A DNA stretch of 11,020 nucleotides from Candidatus Micrarchaeum sp. (GTDB lineage: Archaea; SpSt-1190; DYHY01), in NCBI GenBank assembly GCA_020723935.1, contig DYHY01000010.1, positions 29,964-40,983 on the forward strand, in the 5' to 3' direction. This document shows positions 1 to 11,020 of this stretch, one piece after another. Below the pieces are notes generated by a model. That model was not told the origin of the DNA. It did no database searches and worked only from the letters and a program-made list of their open reading frames with translations. Every line of letters starts with the position of its first letter. The first letter of the stretch is position 1. The translations under genes and the position numbers were made by a program.

Positions 1-67
1 TGGGTCCCCCTTTGGGTCCCCCTTTGGGTCCCCCTTTGGGTCCCCCTTTGGGTCCCCCTTTGGGTCC
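1..67. repeat. 12-bp tandem repeat (minisatellite), open at left edge
   Basis: Five perfect copies of the 12-bp unit TGGGTCCCCCTT occupy bases 1-60, followed by a partial copy to base 67; the array probably continues to the left of the window. The unit is a multiple of three, so it keeps frame on both strands. On the minus strand an ATG at 69-67 would read Met followed by Asp-Pro-Lys-Gly repeats; the other minus frames read Pro-Lys-Gly-Gly and Thr-Gln-Arg-Gly, and a plus frame reads Gly-Pro-Pro-Leu. It may be the repetitive part of a low-complexity protein or a non-coding minisatellite; the window does not decide. The perfect identity of the copies suggests recent expansion by slippage. Confidence 0.95.
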
Positions 68-79
68 ATTTGCGGCCCC

Positions 80-163
80 TTATTTCCACCGCTCGCCCCT
101 TTGGCGCCCCCGGCGGGCCTTTTCCGCCTTCTTGGCCGCCGGAGGCTCTATAACTTTGTTCAT
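80..163 (-). CDS. possible small basic ORF (27 aa)
   Basis: A minus-strand ATG at 163 opens a 27-residue frame that ends at a TAA (82-80). The predicted peptide begins MNKVIEPPAAKKAEKARRGR and is strongly basic. A TATA-like element (TATAAAT on the minus strand, about 184-190) lies about 20 nt upstream, the same arrangement as the convincing promoters in this window. After the stop the same frame continues as Gly-Ala-Ala-Asn-Gly followed by Pro-Lys-Gly-Gly repeats, so a longer low-complexity protein broken by this TAA is also conceivable. I recognise no family. The call rests only on promoter position and peptide composition and is weak. Confidence 0.22.
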   Translation of the reverse strand: MNKVIEPPAAKKAEKARRGRQRGERWK

Positions 164-1130: not shown

Positions 1131-1510
1131 TGCTGCCTGTCGCGCGAGAGGATGCCCTCGGAATCCCTCACGCGGAAATGTAGCTCGAACTTGCCGCTGT
1201 CGGAGTGGAAGCTGTAGCTGAAGTAGCCGAAGCCCGTCTGGTTCTCCCGCACGCTCGCGGTTTTCTCGTTCTTCAGATAAAGATTGTAGAAATAGGCGAG
1301 CTCGTCTTCTGCTCCCTCTGGCTTCTTCCTACTGATCTCGGCCCAGCGCAAGGCGTCCTCCCGCGGCGGGCGCTCGTCATTGTAGCCGAAGATGCGCACG
1401 AACATGCAGGTGTTCAGGAATATCGAGCGCGCGAGCGAGACGCCCGTCCTCTCGGAGATTATCCTTGCGAACTCCAGCTAAAGGCGGAAGGATTCCCTGG
1501 AGACGGTCAC
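1130..1510 (-). pseudogene. remnant of gene downstream of dedA, amber-interrupted and 3'-truncated
   Basis: A GTG at 1510-1508 shares its first G with the TAG stop of the DedA gene (TAGTG), the usual sign of a translationally coupled second gene. The frame reads Val-Thr-Val-Ser-Arg-Glu-Ser-Phe-Arg-Leu, then TAG at 1480-1478, then continues naturally with LEFARIISERTGVSLARSIF, an ATG at 1405 (MFVRIFGYNDERPP) and about 90 more sensible residues, including GYFSYSFHSDSGKFELHFRV. After about 1130 the frame stays open to 647 but becomes arginine- and proline-rich antisense text over the plus-strand fragment, so the true 3' end is lost. One C-to-T change of a CAG codon would create the TAG. I do not recognise the family. 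An internal ATG start at 1405, or readthrough of the TAG, cannot be ruled out, but the missing 3' end argues for a pseudogene. Confidence 0.55.
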
Positions 1511-2172
1511 TATCGTCTCTTGGGTTTATTTTTCTTCCTTGCTTGGAGGCGGTGTTTCCAGAGCCCGACAGCCATCGGAAGCATCGAGACGGCTATTATC
1601 GCGAGGATGACGAGGGAGAAGTTCTCCCTCACGAACGGGATGTTCCCGAAGAAGTAGCCGCCGAAGAGGAAGCCGCCGACCCATGCGAGGCCTCCGATGA
1701 CGTTGTAGAAGAGGAACTCCGGATAGGGCATGCTCCCGACCCCCGCCATGAACGGGGCGAAGGTCCTCACGATCGGGACGAACCTCGCGAGCAGTATCGT
1801 CTTCCCGCCGTGCTTTTTGTAGAACTCCTCGGTCCTTTGCACGTATTCCCTCCTCAGGAACCACAGCTTCTCCTTCCTGAGGACCGCCGGGCCGAGGAGG
1901 TTCCCCACCCAGTAGTTCAGGCTGTCGCCGATGATCGCCGCGAGGGAGAGGATGGAGAGGAGCGCCCAGATGTTGAGGGGCCCCACCGCCGCAAGGGCCC
2001 CGACGGCGAAGAGGAGCGAGTCGCCAGGGAGGAACGGGGCGATGACGAGGCCCGTCTCCGAGAAGATTACGAGGAAGACGATGAAATAGACCCATTTGCC
2101 GTACGCGAGGAGGATCCCCGCAAGATACCTGTCCACGTGCAGAGTGTATTCCAGAAGGAGGGGGAGGGCCAT
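1510..2172 (-). CDS. DedA/VTT-family integral membrane protein, 220 aa
   Basis: The protein matches the DedA (SNARE-associated/VTT) family in length and motifs. An acidic residue lies in the first re-entrant region (FSETGLVIAPFLPGDSLLF, about 37-55), followed by GDSLNYWVG (82-90), the signature RFVPIVRTFAPFMAG (130-144), and NVIGGLAWV (157-165). Hydrophobic spans fall at about 27-46, 52-88 and 140-205, with a very basic C-terminal tail. Members are polytopic membrane proteins; bacterial and archaeal relatives have been linked to flipping of polyprenyl phosphate or phospholipid and to membrane homeostasis, but the substrate cannot be read here. The ATG at 2172 is supported by a TATA box 29 nt upstream. 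Its stop overlaps a GTG that began a second, now broken gene, so this was once a two-gene operon. It is divergent from the gene at 2391. Confidence 0.93.
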   Translation of the reverse strand: MALPLLLEYTLHVDRYLAGILLAYGKWVYFIVFLVIFSETGLVIAPFLPGDSLLFAVGALAAVGPLNIWALLSILSLAAIIGDSLNYWVGNLLGPAVLRKEKLWFLRREYVQRTEEFYKKHGGKTILLARFVPIVRTFAPFMAGVGSMPYPEFLFYNVIGGLAWVGGFLFGGYFFGNIPFVRENFSLVILAIIAVSMLPMAVGLWKHRLQARKKNKPKRR

Positions 2173-3167: not shown

Positions 3168-4787
3168 CGGGTGCGGCTCCAGGAGGCGCGACTTGTACTC
3201 GGGGTGCGCCTGCGTGCCGACGAAGAACGGATGGCCCCTGAGTTCCATGAATTCCATGAGCCGCCCGTCCGGCGACGTCCCGGAGAACACGACGCCTGCC
3301 TTCTCCAGGTCCGGGACGTACCTGGCGTTCACCTCGTACCTGTGCCTGTGGCGCTCCGACACGCGGGCGGCCCCGCCGTAGAGCTTCCTCACGGCCGTCC
3401 CCTCCTTCAGGATCGCCGGCCAGCTCCCGAGGCGCATGGTCCCGCCCAGGTTCCCCTCCGCGACGTTCCGCTTCTGGCTCTCCATCACCGAGACGACGGG
3501 CGCGGGCGTTCTTGCGTCGCATTCCGTCGTGTGCGCGCCGGCAAGGCCGCAGACGTCGCGGGCTATCTCGACGATCGCAAGCTGCATCCCGTAGCAGATC
3601 CCCAGGTACGGTATCTTCTTCTCGCGCGCGAACTTCACCGCCGCGATCTTGCCCTCGACGCCCGTCTCGCCGAAGCCCGGGAGGCCGATGATCCCGTCGA
3701 ACTTCGCGAGTTCCCCGAGCCTCGCGGGCGCCCCTTCGTATTCCTTGGCGTTGATCCATTCCAGCTCCGGCCGGATGCCGAGGTGCGCGCCGGCGTGCAG
3801 GAGAGCCTGGGATATCGAGACGTAGGCATCGGGCAGGCGGAAGCTCCCGGATTCTATGTACTTGGCTATCAGGGCGATCGCGACGCTCCTCCTTGCCGAA
3901 TCCATCCTCCCGACGAGGCGCTTCCATTCCAAGAGGTCCGCCTTCCTGTCGGGGGAGCCGGTGCGCTTTAGGATGTTGGCTACGAGGCCCTGGCCCTCGA
4001 GGAGCAGCGGCACGCAGTAGACGTTCCCGACGTCGGGCGCGGCGGTGACGTTCTCCGTCGGCACGTTCGTCACGTTAGCTATCTTCTCCCTCCTCACGCC
4101 GTCCACCTCGACGGGCGCGCGCACAACAAGGAAGTCCGGGAACGCCCCGAGGGCGCCCATCGCGCTTATCGCGTGCTGCGTCGGCTTGCTCTTCATCTCC
4201 TTGAGGTGGCTCGGGACGGGCATGTACGCGACGAGGACGTTGCAGACTTTCTCGCGCCCCTCCTGGAGAGCTATCTTCTGCATCGCCATGATGAAGAGTA
4301 TGTTCTCGTAGTCGCCGACGACCCCCCCTATCTCCACGACGCCGTAGTCGGCCCCCGCCGTCGCCAGGCGGATGCGCCTCACTATCTCGTCGACCACATG
4401 CGGTATTGGCTGGACTGTCCTCCCGAGGTATTTGCCCGCGCGCTCCGCGTCTATCACCGAGCGGAAGATCTGGCCCGTTGTTATGTTGTTTGCGCGAAGG
4501 ACGTTCTGGGAGAGGAACCTCTCGTAGTGGCCGAGGTCCTCGTCCGTCTCCCCCCCGTCCTCCGTGACGAACACCTCGCCGTGCTCGGTGGGCCTCATCG
4601 TCCCGGCGTCGCAGTTGATGTAGGGGTCTATCTTCACCGGAAGGACGGAGTACCCGCGGCTCTTGAGCAGGCGCGAGATGGATGCAGTGATTATCCCCTT
4701 GCCGACGCCGGATATGACGCCGCCGATGACGAAAACGAACTTTGTCCTTTTCGGCCCCCGCCCCGCCGAGTTTTTGGATGTTGGCAC
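3114..4787 (-). CDS. pyrG: CTP synthase (glutamine-hydrolysing), 557 aa
   Basis: CTP synthase converts UTP to CTP using ATP and glutamine ammonia in the cytoplasm. Both domains are present. The synthetase part has the P-loop-like FVIGGVISGVGKGI (about 19-32), KIDPYINCDAGT (52-63) and HGEVFVTEDGGETDEDLGHY. The glutamine amidotransferase part has the nucleophile motif GICYGMQ (Cys398), GGTMRLG, and HPE (His528, Glu530). The start is set at GTG 4787: a TATA box (TTATAAA) ends 21 nt upstream, and the frame's earlier ATG at 4868 lies upstream of that box and would add 27 arginine- and proline-rich residues foreign to the family. Odd points are LPGFG (369-373) where most homologues have PGGFG at the oxyanion strand, and VGDYEN where many have VGDIES. 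The N-terminus is still about 15 residues longer than typical. The 3' end overlaps the convergent gene by 54 bp. Confidence 0.97.
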   Translation of the reverse strand: MPTSKNSAGRGPKRTKFVFVIGGVISGVGKGIITASISRLLKSRGYSVLPVKIDPYINCDAGTMRPTEHGEVFVTEDGGETDEDLGHYERFLSQNVLRANNITTGQIFRSVIDAERAGKYLGRTVQPIPHVVDEIVRRIRLATAGADYGVVEIGGVVGDYENILFIMAMQKIALQEGREKVCNVLVAYMPVPSHLKEMKSKPTQHAISAMGALGAFPDFLVVRAPVEVDGVRREKIANVTNVPTENVTAAPDVGNVYCVPLLLEGQGLVANILKRTGSPDRKADLLEWKRLVGRMDSARRSVAIALIAKYIESGSFRLPDAYVSISQALLHAGAHLGIRPELEWINAKEYEGAPARLGELAKFDGIIGLPGFGETGVEGKIAAVKFAREKKIPYLGICYGMQLAIVEIARDVCGLAGAHTTECDARTPAPVVSVMESQKRNVAEGNLGGTMRLGSWPAILKEGTAVRKLYGGAARVSERHRHRYEVNARYVPDLEKAGVVFSGTSPDGRLMEFMELRGHPFFVGTQAHPEYKSRLLEPHPLYLGFLKAAAGGSSGAK

Positions 4788-4808
4788 TCCTCCGCCTGGG
4801 TTTCGGGG

Positions 4809-4815
4809 TTTATAA
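4809..4815 (-). promoter_or_regulatory. TATA box of pyrG
   Basis: TTATAAA on the minus strand ends 21 nt before the GTG at 4787. It sits between the stop of the small membrane-protein gene (4885) and pyrG, giving pyrG its own leaderless promoter. It also argues against the upstream ATG at 4868, whose frame would translate through it. Confidence 0.75.
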
Positions 4816-4884
4816 GAAAATCTGTGGCCCGCCGGTCGGTCCGTCCCCGGAAGGGCTCGGGCAAGCACGCAGATCCGGCCCGCC

Positions 4885-5097
4885 TTATTTCTGCCGCCCT
4901 TCCCGCCGCCCCGGGAAAAGCCTGTCGAGAATCGCGGAGACGAAACCCAGCACCGCCGCGAGGGAGAACATGGCCCCCAGGGCGAGGAGGATCTTGAAGT
5001 TCAGGAGCGCGACAATGTCCCCTGCGGGCTCAGAGCTTCTTTTGGTAGTGGCGCTTCCTGGAGAGCAGCCCCGTGAGCCTGAACCAGAACGAGTCAA
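4885..5097 (-). CDS. small single-span membrane protein, start uncertain
   Basis: The C-terminal 43 or so residues (from Ile28, base 5016) form a convincing small membrane protein: a hydrophobic stretch containing LLNFKILLALGAMFSLAAVL and ending in a basic tail (FPGRREGRQK). The start is unclear. The listed start is a TTG at 5097, which would overlap the preceding gene by 68 nt and add 27 residues of Ser/Gly/Arg-rich text that looks like frame shadow. No ATG, GTG or TTG occurs in frame between the upstream stop (5030) and the membrane span; an ATT at 5016, 13 nt after that stop and just behind AGGGG, is a non-canonical candidate. The next ATG would cut into the membrane span. It follows the Ig-like surface protein on the same strand and probably shares its transcript. 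Function unknown. Confidence 0.55.
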   Translation of the reverse strand: MTRSGSGSRGCSPGSATTKRSSEPAGDIVALLNFKILLALGAMFSLAAVLGFVSAILDRLFPGRREGRQK

Positions 5098-6952
5098 TCT
5101 TCTGGCCCAGCGTCTCAGCGGTGTACCCCTCGTAGTGCGCCTCGAGCCTGTGCTTCCTCACGGTCTTTGTGTAGGCCCAGTAGAGGAATATTGCGACGAG
5201 CACGAACGCGAAGGCGTGCACGAGCAGGCCGACAACCACTATTTGGAAGAGGTTGGCTTCCATCACGCCCTTCTGGACGTTCCCCGCGGCGTCGGCTGCG
5301 GAGAACTCGACCGAATAGCCCGCCTTCAGGTCCGTCCTGGGGGCGAACGCGGCCGCCCATGTCTTCCCGTCGCCCGCATTGTATAGCTCCACCGTCTGGG
5401 GCGCCCCGCCCGTCTCCGTCACGAGCGCGACGACCTTCGTCACGGGCGTCGTCTCGTCGGAGACCTCCGCGGAAAGCGTCACCTTGTCCAGGCCCCCGAG
5501 GAGCTTGAATGTCGCCGAGACCTTGGGCATCGCGGGGGGCCTCGTGTCAACGGTGAAATCCTTCCTCACTGGCTCGGCCGCGTTCCCGGCGTAGTCGGAT
5601 GCCGCGATCTCCAGAGCGTGCGCCCCTTCGGAAAGGCCTTCCGCGGAGGAGGTGCATACCCCCTCCTTCGTGCATGTCACCTTGATCGGGCCCGAGTCGA
5701 TGAGGACGCTTGCGGAGGCCGAATCCACGCCGCTCCCACCCAGGTCGTCTTGGACGGCGAACGGGAGCTGGAGCGAGCTTGCAGCGGAGATGGCCGGGAC
5801 TTCTGCCTGGAGCTTTATCGCGGGCTTCCTGGAGTCGAAGATGGCGCCCGCCTCCTTGAAGACGCTACCGCTGGAGCTCCTGTCCGTGCCGAAGACCGTT
5901 ATGAGCGCCCTGCCGCCGGCCTCGCCGCTGGGGTCGGCGACGACCTTCCAGCTGCACGAAGCCGCGTCGCAGAACGATGGCTGCACCTGGACGTCCGCGC
6001 CCTTGCCGGTGAGCCTGTGCAGGTCCGCCGAGATTGTCGCGGCCGAGAAGCCGGAGCCCGAGTCCCTGATGTCCGCCTTGACCACGACCTCGGCGCCGGG
6101 CCGCACGAACCCTGGCTTCTCGCTCCCGAGGTTGCGCGCCTCTATCCCCGAGATCACTGGCGGCGTGTTGTCGATGTTAAGCTCCACTTGCCTCGTCTGC
6201 CTGTTCCCCGCGACGTCGTACTCGTCGATCACGAGGAAGTGCTTGCCTTCCTGCATGACGGCCGGGAGCGCGAAGATGCCCTTGCAGTTGTTCTCCACCG
6301 AGGAATAGTTGAGCTGCGTCGGGGTCCCGTAGCCTATGAACGGGTCTATTGATGCGGTGCAGGACGCGAAGCCCGACTCCATGTCCTCGGCGCTCCCCTC
6401 GACGTAGACTCCCGCGCCCTCCTTGTACCAAGAGCCGCTCGCGGGCGACGTGAGCGCTATCTCCTGCGGCGCGGTGCGGTCCAGCTTTATCGGGACGAGA
6501 TAGGTTGTCTCGCTGTTCTCGGTCCCGTTGTCCGTGGTCAGGACGGTGAGGTTGTAGACGTAGCCCTCGCCGAACGTGACGTGGAGGCTCACCTGCATCT
6601 TCATCCCCGCCGCGAGGGGGTTCGTGCTCGTCGCATACGCACACACCGCGGTACCGAACGGGCTCGCGAGGTCCCACTCCGAGATCCTGCTGTCACAGGT
6701 TATCGACGTCCGGCTGACCGCCGGTTTCATTATCCTTATCTCGTTAACCGCGTCGACGGAAGTCGGACCGCTTTCGAAATAGAGCGTGAAGGTCCTGTTG
6801 GCCAGGCTGTTTATCCACTCCGGCGTTATGGAGATGGAGATGTCGCTGGACGGATATGCGGCGTGGAAGGAGAGCATTCCTGCGAGGACGACCGCGATGC
6901 AAACGAGAATCAGGCTCCGGTGAGCATTATGGGCCAATTTGCGTCCAACCAT
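5030..6952 (-). CDS. membrane-anchored surface protein with about five Ig-like domains, 640 aa
   Basis: An N-terminal hydrophobic segment (about 13-30) acts as signal peptide or anchor. A large extracytoplasmic region follows, then one transmembrane helix (about 569-594) and a basic cytoplasmic tail of about 45 residues. The ectodomain is built of beta-sandwich modules of about 105 residues joined by linkers of similar form: LDRTAPQ (157), IDNTPPV (260), FDSRKPA (372), VDTRPPA (468). Several modules end with D-x-AGN (246, 453, 554), typical of bacterial-type Ig-like adhesin or stalk domains. Eight ectodomain cysteines fall in pairs (86/104, 198/223, 328/333, 427/433), suggesting disulfides. 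N-glycosylation sequons (52, 134, 142, 215) lie in the first third. The ATG at 6952 has a TATA box 22 nt upstream. It may be a surface or adhesion protein; the glycosylation genes lie just upstream. No catalytic domain is visible. Confidence 0.88.
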   Translation of the reverse strand: MVGRKLAHNAHRSLILVCIAVVLAGMLSFHAAYPSSDISISITPEWINSLANRTFTLYFESGPTSVDAVNEIRIMKPAVSRTSITCDSRISEWDLASPFGTAVCAYATSTNPLAAGMKMQVSLHVTFGEGYVYNLTVLTTDNGTENSETTYLVPIKLDRTAPQEIALTSPASGSWYKEGAGVYVEGSAEDMESGFASCTASIDPFIGYGTPTQLNYSSVENNCKGIFALPAVMQEGKHFLVIDEYDVAGNRQTRQVELNIDNTPPVISGIEARNLGSEKPGFVRPGAEVVVKADIRDSGSGFSAATISADLHRLTGKGADVQVQPSFCDAASCSWKVVADPSGEAGGRALITVFGTDRSSSGSVFKEAGAIFDSRKPAIKLQAEVPAISAASSLQLPFAVQDDLGGSGVDSASASVLIDSGPIKVTCTKEGVCTSSAEGLSEGAHALEIAASDYAGNAAEPVRKDFTVDTRPPAMPKVSATFKLLGGLDKVTLSAEVSDETTPVTKVVALVTETGGAPQTVELYNAGDGKTWAAAFAPRTDLKAGYSVEFSAADAAGNVQKGVMEANLFQIVVVGLLVHAFAFVLVAIFLYWAYTKTVRKHRLEAHYEGYTAETLGQKIDSFWFRLTGLLSRKRHYQKKL

Positions 6953-6974
6953 GCGCCAAGGGGCGCGTTTTCAG

Positions 6975-6982
6975 CATATAAA
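6975..6982 (-). promoter_or_regulatory. TATA box of the Ig-like protein gene
   Basis: TTTATATG on the minus strand ends 22 nt before the ATG at 6952, fitting a leaderless mRNA and separating this unit from the glycosylation genes upstream. Confidence 0.72.
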
Positions 6983-7040
6983 CGTTTTCAAAAACCGCCG
7001 GCAAGCGCGCCTTTTGCACCTGTTTCCAGTGACGTTTTCC

Positions 7041-7060
7041 CCGGTGCGCCGAAGAACCGG
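7041..7060 (-). terminator. weak hairpin after the lipid kinase gene
   Basis: CCGGT (7041-7045) and ACCGG (7056-7060) are inverted repeats beginning 6 nt after the stop at 7067. No T-run follows directly; a TTTTT on the minus strand occurs further on, near 6990. It may help end the two-gene transcript, but archaeal terminators are usually T-rich and do not depend on hairpins, so support is limited. Confidence 0.22.
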
Positions 7061-7066
7061 GCCGCC

Positions 7067-7663
7067 TCACTTGAGGAGCGCCAGCGCCGCAGCAGAGATT
7101 AGCGGGACGAGCAGGTTGTCGTCGACGATCTCGGAAGGGAGCGCCTCCGCGGCGGCGGAAAGGAGGGCGGCGATCGCGCAGGAGGAGAACCTGAACGGCG
7201 AGGCGAGCGACGCTGCGAAATTGGCCGCCGCGCATGCGGCGAAGCCCTCCCAGCTCTTTTCCGTCCCTGGGATCCGGTGCCTGCCGAAGGCGAGGCCCGC
7301 GACCGTCGCCACGGAATCGCCGAGGGCGAGGAACGCTATCCCCCAGAATGCGGCGTCCCGCTCGAAGATTGCCGCGGTCGCGAGAGCGCCGATCGTGAAC
7401 GACAGGGCGCCCTTGCCCGCGCGCGCCCCCTCCCTCTCGAACCTCTCGAGGAAGGGCCGCACGAGGCCTATCTTCCTGCTGTGGAGTGAGAGGAAACCGC
7501 CGAGGACCGCGAGGGAAGAAAGGAGCAGGACGGAATAAGCCTTTGGGAGGAGGAAGACCGGGAACGCGAGGAGGAGGCCGTACGCTAGGTGGAATGTCTG
7601 GCGGGGGATTTCCTTCCTGAGTTTGGCCGCCCCCTGCCTGCCCTCCTCTTTCCCCTTCGTCAT
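7067..7663 (-). CDS. Sec59/DGK1-type CTP-dependent lipid kinase (dolichol kinase-like), 198 aa
   Basis: This small polytopic membrane protein carries the conserved points of the COG0170 dolichol kinase/phosphatidate cytidylyltransferase-like family: KEIPRQTFHLAYGLL near the N-terminus (17-31), FLALGDSVATVAGLAFG (111-127), GTEKSWEG (133-140), and the C-terminal EALPSEIVDDNLLVPL (173-188). Known members phosphorylate dolichol, diacylglycerol or phytol with CTP as donor; here a polyprenol substrate is most likely because the gene is coupled to a lipid-sugar-dependent glycosyltransferase. The ATG at 7663 overlaps the upstream stop as ATGA, which decides the start against an in-frame upstream candidate at 7708 that would overlap by 49 nt. 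A CTP synthase gene lies nearby on the same strand, a fitting but unproven link. Confidence 0.88.
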   Translation of the reverse strand: MTKGKEEGRQGAAKLRKEIPRQTFHLAYGLLLAFPVFLLPKAYSVLLLSSLAVLGGFLSLHSRKIGLVRPFLERFEREGARAGKGALSFTIGALATAAIFERDAAFWGIAFLALGDSVATVAGLAFGRHRIPGTEKSWEGFAACAAANFAASLASPFRFSSCAIAALLSAAAEALPSEIVDDNLLVPLISAAALALLK

Positions 7664-9213
7664 GGCGCGCTTCCTGCCTCCCGCCGGTACGGCCCCAGCA
7701 GCAACCACGCGTGATCCCCTATCTCTTTAACTTTGCGCCATCTTGCGCCCTCCGGGCCGATGCTTGCGTACTCGCCCTTCCTGATGTAGACTGCCGTGCG
7801 CTCCCCTGTCCCCGAAAGGCGCGCCCGCCAGACCGGGTCCAGGACCGCGTGCTTGGACGTTACGAAATTGTCGACGAACGGGACGTAGCCGGGCATCCTG
7901 CCCTGGAGATAGAAGCCGAAGAAGTCAGGGTCCTCCCGCGTGAGGAACGCCATCTTGGTCCCCCGCAGGTTCTCCTCGTAATAGAACGCCCCGTCCTCGG
8001 TCGTGTCTATTCCCTTCCATTCCGGCGGGAGATCGAGCGCGAAGGAGAAGATGACGCAGACTGCGGCGCACAGGACGAGAAGCCCCGCGAATGCTCTGAG
8101 CCGGCCGGCCCTTGAGAAGAGGATCGCGAGCGCGAGCGCGCAGGCCGGGAAGGTCGTCATCGCCTGGTAAATCTTGGGGCCGGGCATCGGGACGAAGAGG
8201 AACGCGATGCTGAGCGCGGCGAGGGCGCAGAGGAACCTCTGCATGGCCGGAGCCTTCCTGTCTAGGGCCGCCCTTGCGAGGAGGCACGCGAAGAGGAGCT
8301 CGAGCGCGAAGCCGGCGGCTAGGCTGAGCGAGCGCCCGGAGATTGGCGGCATCCCGGAGACGAAGATCGGGATGCTGCGCGGGAGGGGGAGGAAATACCT
8401 CGCTACGTCGCTCACCTGCGCGAGCCTCCCCGCCCAGGACGTCACAACTGCTTCCTCCGTCCGGGGGAGATAGAGCGGGAGTTGCACCAGGCTTTCCAGG
8501 TAGAACAGCACGTGGAGGCACGCCGCGAGGACCGCCGCGCCGACGATCGCCCAGTCCGCCCCGCGCAGGCCCTTGAGCTCGCCGAAGAGGAAGGCGCACG
8601 CGAGGAACGGGAACAGGAAGAGGAGATAGACTAGCTTTGCCGACGCCCCGGAAGCCGCGACGAAGGCGAGGAGGAAGAGCAGGCGCCTGTCCTTCGAGCG
8701 CCGGTAGAGCATCCAGCAGAACAGCGTGAGGGCGATGAAGAGCGTCGTCGTCACCTCCAACAGCGAGCCCATCCCTGCGAGGAAAAAGTTGGCCGGAAGG
8801 AAAAGGTAGAGGAGCGCCGCGAGGGCGCCCGTCTTCCTCGGGACGGCGCCGCTCTTGAGGGAAAACATCGCCAGGAAGACGAAGGCGAGGGCGGTCGTGG
8901 CGATCGCTTGCATCCTCGCCCGGGCGAGGGGCGGCCCCAGGTCGCGGAAGAGGTCCTCGAAAAGGGCGCCTATTTGGAAGGACGTCGCGTAGATGTAGGA
9001 GTTGACTGCCGTGGGGCTGCTCCCGATCTCTGTCGTAGACCTCCCGTTGTCGTAGATGAAGACCTCGTCGTAGTCCAAGGGCGACCAGCTGAGGATGGTC
9101 GGGAGGCGCAGGAGGAGGAAGGCTGAAAGCGCCGCCAGGATGAACAGGAGGACGAGGATGCCGTCGCCTCGCCCATTGCCGGGTCGCCCGCCAGGTTTCC
9201 CCTTCTGCCGCAC
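7660..9213 (-). CDS. GT-C family membrane glycosyltransferase (PMT/ArnT-like), 517 aa
   Basis: A short basic N-terminus is followed by a first transmembrane helix (about 18-36) and then SPLDYDE (44-50), the acidic loop motif typical of GT-C enzymes that use lipid-phosphate sugars. About ten further hydrophobic helices extend to residue 415, including LYLFLPANFFLAGMGSL; a soluble extracytoplasmic domain of about 100 residues ends the protein. By family, it would move a sugar from a polyprenyl-phosphate donor to a protein, lipid or glycan on the outer face of the membrane; donor and acceptor are not readable. The start is GTG 9213, with a TATA box ending 20 nt upstream. It is the first gene of a two-gene unit with the lipid kinase (ATGA overlap), and both faces of polyprenyl-phosphate-sugar use are thus co-transcribed. 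It is divergent from the HerA-like ATPase gene. Confidence 0.85.
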   Translation of the reverse strand: MRQKGKPGGRPGNGRGDGILVLLFILAALSAFLLLRLPTILSWSPLDYDEVFIYDNGRSTTEIGSSPTAVNSYIYATSFQIGALFEDLFRDLGPPLARARMQAIATTALAFVFLAMFSLKSGAVPRKTGALAALLYLFLPANFFLAGMGSLLEVTTTLFIALTLFCWMLYRRSKDRRLLFLLAFVAASGASAKLVYLLFLFPFLACAFLFGELKGLRGADWAIVGAAVLAACLHVLFYLESLVQLPLYLPRTEEAVVTSWAGRLAQVSDVARYFLPLPRSIPIFVSGMPPISGRSLSLAAGFALELLFACLLARAALDRKAPAMQRFLCALAALSIAFLFVPMPGPKIYQAMTTFPACALALAILFSRAGRLRAFAGLLVLCAAVCVIFSFALDLPPEWKGIDTTEDGAFYYEENLRGTKMAFLTREDPDFFGFYLQGRMPGYVPFVDNFVTSKHAVLDPVWRARLSGTGERTAVYIRKGEYASIGPEGARWRKVKEIGDHAWLLLGPYRREAGSAP

Positions 9214-9233
9214 GCCGGGAGGAGCCCCGGCCG

Positions 9234-9241
9234 GTATATAA
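9234..9241 (-). promoter_or_regulatory. TATA box of the glycosyltransferase-kinase unit
   Basis: TTATATAC on the minus strand ends 20 nt before the GTG at 9213, consistent with a leaderless transcript that begins at the GTG. Confidence 0.75.
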
Positions 9242-9250
9242 CGCTTGTAT

Positions 9251-9284
9251 CCGGACGGAGGCGTCCGCAGGCGCCGACGTCCGG
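9251..9284. promoter_or_regulatory. interrupted palindrome, candidate shared operator
   Basis: CCGGACG (9251-9257) pairs with CGTCCGG (9278-9284), and inside it GGCG (9260-9263) pairs with CGCC (9272-9275), all about one centre at 9267.5. The two spacers are both GA and do not pair. The centre is equidistant from the two divergent TATA boxes (centres about 9237.5 and 9297). This symmetry suggests a regulator dimer or tetramer controlling both genes. An overlapping shorter repeat (GGACG 9253-9257, CGTCC 9262-9266) is also present. Confidence 0.55.
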
Positions 9285-9291
9285 AGAATTC

Positions 9292-9300
9292 TATTTATAG
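9292..9300 (+). promoter_or_regulatory. TATA box of the HerA-like ATPase gene
   Basis: TATTTATAG ends 26 nt before the ATG at 9327. No Shine-Dalgarno site precedes the ATG, so the mRNA is probably leaderless or nearly so. Confidence 0.72.
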
Positions 9301-9326
9301 TCGGTTTCCGTTCCTCTGAGACGCAA

Positions 9327-11020
9327 ATGGCTGTTTTCCTGCGAGGAGACCTGCGCGCCGCGCGCGCCGCCGTAGCCCTCTTGCTGCTTGCGGCCCTCTT
9401 GGCTATCGCTCCGGCCCTTGCGGCCGAGGCCTCCTCTGGGCCGGCGACCGCCGAGACAATCTCCAACGTCTACGGCCAGAGGCTCTTTCAGCTGGACGTC
9501 AAGGCCGTGACGCACGAGGTGCGGCCGGGGGAGTATTTCCGCTTCTACACGAAGGTCTCCTTCAACACTGGGACGAAGATATCGACTAGCTACCGGATGA
9601 ACTACACGATCTACCCGCAGAACGCCCCGATCAAGGCGGTCCTCAGCTTCACGCGCGAGGGCGTGCTCCTCTACCAGGAGAATTTCAACGACGCGTACTA
9701 CATCCCAAAGAACGCGACCCTCGGCGTCTACGTCGTCGAGGCGACGATAACGGCCGAACAGTACAACAGCACGCCCGTCGCCGCGGCCGACTATTTCACG
9801 GTCGATAGGCCCTTCCTCCTCTGGTCGATCCTCTACACTCTCGTGGACAACCCGCTCGTATACGTGATCTACCTCGTCATCGCCCCGCTCGTCTTCCTCG
9901 GCTACAATGGGTACAAGAAGCTGCGCGAGATGGTGAAGAAGAAGCAGAAATACGTCTCCCCGGTCGACCCGAACAAGCTCCCCAAGTCAGGCCCGCGCTC
10001 CATCTGGCTAGGCAAGGTGGCGGAGACCCCCTTCAACGCCTACTACGACATGGACAAGCTCCAGATGCACATGGTCGCCGCGGGCGGCACGGGCAGCGGC
10101 AAGTCCGTCTCCATCCAGGTGATCGTGGAAGAGCTCCTTCTCAAGAACATCCCGGTCATTGTCTTCGACCCGACCGCCCAGTGGACGGGCTTCATCCGCC
10201 CGCAGAAGGACCCGGCGATGCTTAGGCTCTTCACCAGCTTCGGCATGAAGCCCGAGGACGTCAGAGCCTTCCCGACAACCCTCATAGACATCACCGACCC
10301 GACAACTGAAGTCGACATCCGCAATTACATGAAGCCCGGAGAAATCACCGTCTTCAACGTCAACAAGATGCCCCCGACCGACCTGGACCCCTTCGTCCGG
10401 CGCACGATCGAGAAGATCTTCTCCGTTCCCTGGCCCGAATCCCACGAGCTCAAGCTCATGATAGTCTACGACGAGGTCCACCGCCTCTTGCCCAAGTTCG
10501 GCGGCAAGGGCGGCTACATTGCCCTCGAGCGGGGCTGCCGCGAGTTCCGCAAGTGGGGCCTGGGCCTCGTCATGATTTCCCAGGTCCTTTTGGACTTCAA
10601 GGGAGCCATCCGCACGAACATAGGCACAGAAATCCAGCTGAGGACCAAGTACGAGGGCGACATCAACCGCGTCAAGACCAAGTACGGCCCCCAGTTCGCC
10701 GCGACGATCACCAAGCTCAACATCGGAACCGGCATCATGCAGAACCCGGAATACAACGACGGCAAGCCCTGGTATGTCCAGTTCCGCCCGCTCCTCCACT
10801 CCACCTTCCGCATTGGCGAGGAGGAGCTCGCCCAGTACAAGGCGGTGACCGGCTCCCTCGCCGAGCTACGCGAGAGGATCAACTCCCTCAAGGCGGCCGG
10901 CCGGGATGTCTACGACGTCGAAATGGAATACAACCTCGCCGCCGACAAGGTGAAGGCCGGGAACATGTCGATGGCCGCGACCTATCTGGAGAGCCTCAAG
11001 GGGAAGCTGGAGAGCCTGGG
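9327..11020 (+). CDS. secreted-domain/transmembrane/HerA-like ATPase fusion, 3' end beyond window
   Basis: An open frame of 564 codons runs from ATG 9327 off the right edge. A signal peptide or anchor (about 11-33) is followed by a beta-rich ectodomain (about 35-160) with three N-glycosylation sequons (Asn92, 129, 147), a transmembrane segment (about 176-193) with basic inner flank, and a cytoplasmic P-loop ATPase. The ATPase shows Walker A GGTGSGKS (253-260), VIVFDPTAQWTGF after the next strand, Walker B LMIVYDE (377-383), a GLVMISQ sensor (413-419) and an arginine region near QLRTKYE (437-443). This order fits the FtsK/HerA superfamily (HerA/DUF87 type), whose members pump DNA or protein through hexameric rings. 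The C-terminus after about 500 is helical and looks like the start of a coiled-coil or helical repeat. It may power export, conjugation or surface-filament assembly; the substrate is unknown. Codon use matches the neighbours. Confidence 0.88.
   Translation, partial: MAVFLRGDLRAARAAVALLLLAALLAIAPALAAEASSGPATAETISNVYGQRLFQLDVKAVTHEVRPGEYFRFYTKVSFNTGTKISTSYRMNYTIYPQNAPIKAVLSFTREGVLLYQENFNDAYYIPKNATLGVYVVEATITAEQYNSTPVAAADYFTVDRPFLLWSILYTLVDNPLVYVIYLVIAPLVFLGYNGYKKLREMVKKKQKYVSPVDPNKLPKSGPRSIWLGKVAETPFNAYYDMDKLQMHMVAAGGTGSGKSVSIQVIVEELLLKNIPVIVFDPTAQWTGFIRPQKDPAMLRLFTSFGMKPEDVRAFPTTLIDITDPTTEVDIRNYMKPGEITVFNVNKMPPTDLDPFVRRTIEKIFSVPWPESHELKLMIVYDEVHRLLPKFGGKGGYIALERGCREFRKWGLGLVMISQVLLDFKGAIRTNIGTEIQLRTKYEGDINRVKTKYGPQFAATITKLNIGTGIMQNPEYNDGKPWYVQFRPLLHSTFRIGEEELAQYKAVTGSLAELRERINSLKAAGRDVYDVEMEYNLAADKVKAGNMSMAATYLESLKGKLESL

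Follow-up and report, generated by a model that had tools for sequence, protein, structure and literature searches.

Nanohaloarchaea encode giant SPEARE proteins with a C-terminal, cytoplasmic ATPase together with a short companion ATPase (PMC6642349, PMC10266531), and SPEARE-like giants of 12,127, 8146, and 3105 aa have been described in EX4484-52 (PMC8470020). Hamm et al. (2019) read the inner domain as a type III restriction enzyme, listed similar sequences in Woesearchaeota, Aenigmarchaeota, Micrarchaeota, and Altiarchaeales together with a 655-aa version from SG9, and reported Ca. Nha. antarcticus peptides of the ATPase that migrated at less than 315 kDa (PMC6642349). Reva et al. (2023) interpreted the domain as a VirB4/TraG-like ATPase of a type IV secretion system, partly from PF03135 in the short companion (PMC10266531). 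The CedD protein of Saccharolobus, which consists of a helix, an N-terminal domain, and a HerA/VirB4-like ATPase, is required for DNA import, but not for DNA export (PMC11868833). VirD4/TraD coupling proteins and VirB4 are membrane-associated, hexameric ATPases of the same superfamily. HerA itself, the DNA translocase that works with NurA, is a cytoplasmic protein with a HAS-barrel N-terminus and a nuclease partner. As a group, the HerA/FtsK ATPases are polymer translocases, and EccC and other protein pumps belong to the same superfamily.

The window (i.e., the entire stretch of 11,020 nt that was analyzed) ends in a gene whose product combines a signal peptide, an ectodomain, a membrane helix, and a HerA-like ATPase in one polypeptide, as the initial annotation had proposed. 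Its ATG lies at position 9327 and the frame is open up to the window edge, in agreement with the coordinates first assigned to it. The features of the gene and its flanks, in window coordinates, are:

9214..9326: intergenic region of 113 bp to the divergent gene, read by eye
~9232-9240 and ~9290-9297: TATA-like boxes facing both ways, serving the divergent gene and the ATPase gene, respectively, read by eye
9327..11020 (+): gene for a short membrane ATPase of the SPEARE type; 564 codons lie within the window, and the whole protein has 569 or 577 aa across a contig fork
9327..9425 (+): signal peptide, residues 1-33, with a hydrophobic core at residues 14-32 (mean hydropathy 2.63) and an AxA-type end
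9426..9821 (+): ectodomain, residues 34-165, formed by a single Ig-like domain with homology to the preceding repeat in giant proteins
9840..9896 (+): single transmembrane helix, residues 172-190, mean hydropathy 1.95, with a basic stretch after it
10080..10106 (+): Walker A, AGGTGSGKS, residues 252-260, from Pfam and an alignment of 74 modules
10164..10184 (+): family motif FDPTAQW, residues 280-286; D281, P282, T283, and W286 invariant in the 74 modules
10455..10475 (+): Walker B, LMIVYDE, residues 377-383, from the alignment of 74 modules
10539..10559 (+): REFRKWG, residues 405-411, a likely arginine finger; R405 and R408 invariant in the 74 modules
10578..10583 (+): sensor S418-Q419, invariant in the 74 modules
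10818..11018 (+): conserved C-terminal end of the module, residues 498-564, with helices that belong to the small better-scored fraction of a poor model
10966..11020 (+): final 55 bp of the contig, shared with contigs C28 and C29

Since the predicted signal peptide is preceded by TATA-like boxes in the 113-bp gap, the start of the ATPase gene looks genuine. At its other end the window stops where contig C45 stops, and C28 and C29 both begin with the 55 bases that close C45; a 34-base core of this overlap was found at no other site in the bin with up to three mismatches allowed. Read onward, the protein is 569 aa long via C28 and 577 aa long via C29, with the stop codon 5 or 13 codons past the window edge. 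The overlap thus completes the frame, and almost none of the C-terminus is missing from the window. Contig C28, a possible true continuation of the window gene, is either a strain variant or the neighbor of a second copy whose upstream contig is absent from the bin; it carries a gene for an 885-aa protein without a Pfam family and outside of the conserved neighborhood. Contig C29 carries a coiled-coil gene (144-2039; locus L130), a gene for a 1525-aa surface protein (3691-8265) that resembles the ectodomains of giants (29% over 406 aa), and two ParA-like genes. The same order (ATPase, coiled-coil protein, surface protein, ParA, ParA) was found in G001, another genome of the same family. No second copy of the ATPase was present in the bin, which is 91% complete, and no giant gene was found in the stretches read from this genome, where three contigs read N and the largest complete frame is that of the 1525-aa protein.

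Elsewhere in the window, the divergent neighbor (7660-9213, -) encodes a 517-aa protein that has numerous membrane helices and a DYDE motif near its start; by eye it resembles GT-C glycosyltransferases, and it has zero Pfam matches. A 640-aa surface protein (5030-6952, -) has bacterial Ig-like domains (Big_13, Big_3), a C-terminal helix, and a weak similarity to the giant of genome G027. A membrane protein with a VTT domain (DedA-like) is encoded at 1510-2172 (-), and the left edge of the window (1-80) consists of a short tandem repeat that reads GSPF in one frame.

The strongest hydrophobic stretches of the ATPase protein are residues 14-32 and 172-190, in accord with the segments at residues 11-33 and 176-193 that had been expected to enter the membrane, and a net charge of +6 directly after the helix places the ATPase on the inside. 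All three sequons previously noted in the ectodomain are present (N92-Y-T, N129-A-T, and N147-S-T); a fourth (N546-M-S) is cytoplasmic. Using hhalign, the membrane-proximal domain could be aligned along its entire length to the Ig-like repeat that precedes it in the giants (92.8%), and this repeat to an NPCBM/NEW3-type domain (82.4%); when the membrane-proximal domain was itself compared with NPCBM/NEW3, the result was negative (3.2%; control region, 0). Among relatives, the ectodomain is far more variable than the ATPase.

Conservation of the ATPase domain was assessed in the 74-module alignment, in which G253, G256, G258, K259, D281, P282, T283, W286, D382, H385, R405, E406, F407, R408, S418, Q419, and N431 show no variation, and 73 modules retain E383. 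The Walker A, Walker B, and sensor motifs, described earlier as intact, are represented by residues (K259, D382, S418, Q419) that no module lacks, and the DPTxQW signature seems to mark this ATPase family. In Pfam searches the window protein passed the cut-offs of DUF87 (42.0 bits; cut-off 23.2) and HerA_C (29.2 bits; cut-off 22), while the FtsK, T4SS-DNA_transf, and TrwB (coupling-protein) models remained below theirs. DUF87 and HerA_C matched all 11 family members, whose best NCBIfam matches were without exception CedD (1e-13) and HerA (3e-12); the closest solved structures by profile are HerA proteins, and TraD, TraC, and VirB4 models were matched more weakly. Against the equivalogs themselves the window protein scored far under the cut-off for CedD (26 of 600 bits) and under it for HerA (28 of 800 bits). 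Taken together, the DUF87/HerA core, Walker A and B, the putative arginine finger, and the sensor glutamine place the ATPase, as judged from its sequence, in the HerA branch of the HerA/FtsK superfamily. AlphaFold models of the full-length protein and its ATPase domain, both run as monomers with a two-sequence alignment, each had a mean pLDDT of 39.

A survey of the domain order in other archaea had been suggested, and was done with a profile built from 11 members against 394 archaeal genomes, after which nearly all loci were fetched and measured. The ectodomain-helix-ATPase unit was detected in 59 genomes of 27 families, in frames of up to 12,145 aa; five of the 10 surveyed genomes of the window's own small phylum possess it, and 57 of the 59 positive genomes are no larger than 1.5 Mb. 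Most of these small-genome carriers are symbionts. The window protein shares 54% identity over ~515 residues with its relative in G001 and 35-43% with others, in matches that span residues 44-563, values that point to relatedness far beyond chance. Giants of 8891 (G027), 7944 (G023), at least 5258 (G005), 3110 (G022), and 2960 aa (G013) end in the shared unit. The ATPase was C-terminal in all 75 loci with a complete module end and a stop codon, with tails of 0-483 aa, and wherever the N-side was uncut by a contig end, the membrane-proximal Ig-like domain, the helix, and the ATPase formed one polypeptide; the ectodomain and the ATPase are thus not separate genes in all relatives, and the coupling of a surface part to an inner ATP-driven motor, inferred at first from one locus, is general across these genomes. 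No relative was found on the viral contigs searched, and a separate contig scan returned only one, from a Nanoarchaeota MAG.

Phylogenetic analysis was performed on 74 usable modules, comprising 41 giants (>1500 aa outside), seven intermediate forms, 14 short forms, and 12 that are cut by contig ends. The window protein pairs with that of G001, next to a clade that comprises 11 giants and a single cut row. The G001 module, whose N-side is cut by a contig end, follows a further Ig-like domain and a Gly-rich linker. At least six changes on the tree are needed to explain the short label, which implies that short forms arose, or arms were lost, repeatedly.

Three gene layouts were observed: a fused giant, a giant with a short paralog, and a separate arm gene with a short ATPase. 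In G027, G068, G178, G320, and G333 the giant is directly followed by the short paralog (the upstream gene being cut by the contig start in G333), and in G104 a giant is followed by a 1393-aa form. In G208, G226, and G280 a separate, long gene for a surface protein plus helix overlaps the 5' end of the short ATPase frame. By visual inspection, the complete short forms have an N-terminal signal peptide. Because the published short forms likewise do not have an arm, we assign the window gene, from its sequence, to the short companion subtype, which does not carry the giant arm in the same polypeptide, and not to the giants.

Clustering of neighboring genes produced one dominant family, consisting of 62 sequences from 46 genomes, that encodes a coiled-coil protein of commonly 300-800 aa with a GE(L/I)RSM-like motif. 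All 62 genes lie downstream of the ATPase in the same orientation, in most cases no more than 100 bp from the ATPase frame or the short paralog. The gene also occurs in G001, in G005, and in the window's genome, where the contig that bears it (C29) begins in the overlap with the window's end; downstream of ATPase genes it was seen in 48 genomes. Pfam matches of its members were to generic coiled-coil families, nearly all sub-cut-off, and none was to a family of its own. In an independent scan, the coiled-coil profile was found in 60 of the 394 genomes, 56 of which are shared with the ATPase, leaving three genomes with only the ATPase and four with only the coiled-coil protein (Fisher p 3e-59, without correction for relatedness). 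Completeness of the three genomes with only the ATPase is 85-89%, and in one of them (G119) the contig ends just past the ATPase, with a 74-aa start of the partner. Identity of the partner with FlaC of the archaellum was considered and rejected, as it appeared as one sub-threshold match among generic coiled-coil matches.

A short helical motif (YxxGxISxxxYxxL; SHOCT-like by eye) is shared by the coiled-coil protein, the surface protein (within its cytoplasmic tail), and ParA-like proteins encoded in the same gene group, with sites in L130 on C29 (144-2039, 2917-3663, and 3691-8265) and in G001 (L034); it is perhaps a shared docking element. In eight genomes, mainly ones with short or intermediate forms, a gene for a KaiC-like ATPase occurs near the ATPase locus (e.g., L077, 6760-7470, +).

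Compared with the systems described above, the window protein shares with the SPEARE giants (Ca. Nha. antarcticus; SG9; SVXNc_0300; BNXNv_0298) a C-terminal HerA-type ATPase, one helix, and an Ig-like outside, and is 38% identical to the giant of G027 over the shared unit. Unlike these giants, it is a minimal form of the SPEARE-type ATPase, with a single Ig-like domain and no giant arm, from a phylum other than that of the nanohaloarchaea and from a genome in which no giant was found. It resembles the short companions SVXNc_0299 and BNXNv_0297 and the short SG9 version in having a signal peptide, an Ig-like stalk, a helix, and an ATPase, and the companion in G027 is 39% identical to it; those proteins, however, carry an additional Ig-like domain, and their genes immediately follow that of a giant, whereas the gene upstream of the window gene is divergent. 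A short paralog, alongside cleavage, would offer an explanation for the ATPase peptides that ran below 315 kDa. CedD and CedB of the Sulfolobales are similar to SPEARE-type ATPases in that a membrane helix is joined to a HerA-type ATPase and two paralogs occur in one system, but CedD has a VirB4-like N-terminal domain (PMC11868833) and no described secreted ectodomain, while the window protein has an ectodomain. DUF87 and HerA_C cores with the same motif order are common to HerA and the window protein, but the N-terminus of the latter consists of a signal peptide, an Ig-like domain, and a helix, and the recurrent neighbor is the coiled-coil gene. In contrast to the N-terminal helix pairs of VirD4/TraD and VirB4, SPEARE-type ATPases have a predicted type I topology with a signal peptide.

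Neither published classification agrees with these results. PF03135, the VirB4 N-terminal domain, was absent from the full short companions of G027 and G178 (L026, 4417-6327, -; L046, 7342-9210, -), whose N-termini consist of a signal peptide and Ig-like domains, and was not found anywhere in 12 ATPase-positive genomes; the authors who reported it may have used a more sensitive method. A VirB6-type channel (PF04610) was likewise found in none of the 12 genomes, a search in which a divergent channel could be missed. Type IV secretion proper was rejected on the absence of these two domains from the 12 genomes. PF04851 (ResIII) does pass its cut-off of 22.5 in the short companions (28.3 and 29.8 bits), with scores below those of DUF87 and HerA_C, and these matches probably reflect just the shared P-loop motor.

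Tentatively, and giving it somewhat less than an even chance, we propose that the short SPEARE-type ATPase is a membrane-anchored, hexameric translocase that probably moves DNA and is coupled to host-binding arms. The proposal draws on what the sequences show, namely the topology and active site, the fusion to arms, the gene layouts, and the partner gene. As in other ATPases of the HerA type, six subunits would form a ring around a pore, held at the membrane by six helices, and short subunits would build this ring alone or together with giant subunits. The arms that bind the partner cell would belong to one or a few of the subunits or to surface proteins with genes of their own, and the coiled-coil protein would dock at the cytoplasmic side of the ring. 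ATP hydrolysis could then drive a polymer inward, through or along the membrane. DNA from the host cell would be the likeliest substrate, given the affinity of the ATPase to HerA and the DNA-import ATPase CedD, and may feed small symbiotic archaea with nucleotides. That profile affinity leaves the substrate unfixed, since TraD, TraC, and VirB4 models are matched more weakly and the superfamily includes protein pumps. A pilin or channel protein for the translocase was not identified.

The opposite direction of transport was proposed by Reva et al. (2023) for nanohaloarchaea, in which the ATPase would power the export of effector proteins into the host cell by a simplified type IV secretion. Changes in host metabolism were cited for this hypothesis (PMC10266531), cytoplasmic bridges have been seen by cryo-ET (PMC11001535), and the weak TraD, TraC, and VirB4 matches are compatible with it, but the absence of PF03135 and VirB6 from the 12 genomes and the signal peptide and Ig-like domains at the N-terminus of the short companion lead us to regard it as unlikely. 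Alternatively, the ATPase may transport nothing and instead pull, extend, or organize the giant arms in adhesion, retraction, or membrane fusion. In most loci the arms are directly fused to the ATPase, the coiled-coil protein could serve as a cytoplasmic tether, and ParA/MinD-like genes follow in G001 and on C29; this role is nevertheless rather improbable in view of the established function of HerA/FtsK ATPases in polymer translocation, the short forms that have no arm to pull, and the little leverage that a single-pass helix would provide.

The initial annotation had suggested that an outside cue could control the motor; the Ig-like ectodomain would then be a sensor and switch. Fusion of the membrane-proximal domain to the ATPase in every uncut locus is what a receptor would show, but the domain is an ordinary Ig-like repeat, much less conserved than the ATPase, in which no ligand-binding fold was identified, and we consider such a function very improbable. 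Most improbable, in our estimate, is that the window gene, instead of being a functional short form, is a chimera or the remnant of a giant whose arm was lost. It sits on a long branch (0.66) in a clade otherwise made up of giants and contig-cut rows, its contig ends at an assembly fork right at its 3' end, and a giant copy may be missing from the incomplete genome; against this, it has its own predicted signal peptide and TATA-like box and an intact active site, and 13 other short forms occur in other genomes.

The idea that the gene belongs to an undescribed machine was only partly right, because the giants that end in the shared unit include the published SPEARE proteins of nanohaloarchaea, which are accompanied by a short ATPase of the same domain order. 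The family is partly known, but it is wider, differently classed, and better partnered than published: its spread to 27 families, the co-occurring coiled-coil gene, the three layouts, and a placement with HerA and CedD without a VirB4 N-terminal domain (12 genomes) are new. As a broader speculation, in which our confidence is low, the family might constitute a widespread archaeal machine for cell-to-cell uptake outside of the type IV secretion lineage, built from mixed short and giant rings and the coiled-coil partner, whose arms would bind a host and whose motor would draw DNA, or a different polymer, from that host; the window protein would then be the minimal motor subunit.

Giant SPEARE proteins rank among the foremost candidates for the means by which small archaea that depend on a host obtain material from it. 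Our results indicate that the conserved part of these proteins is the motor, not the arm, and argue against two published readings of it, as a restriction enzyme and as a VirB4 with its own N-terminal domain. The near-obligate, unannotated coiled-coil partner is directly testable, and the short, stand-alone forms, with ~570 residues in place of thousands, are, unlike the giants, practical for structural and biochemical work.
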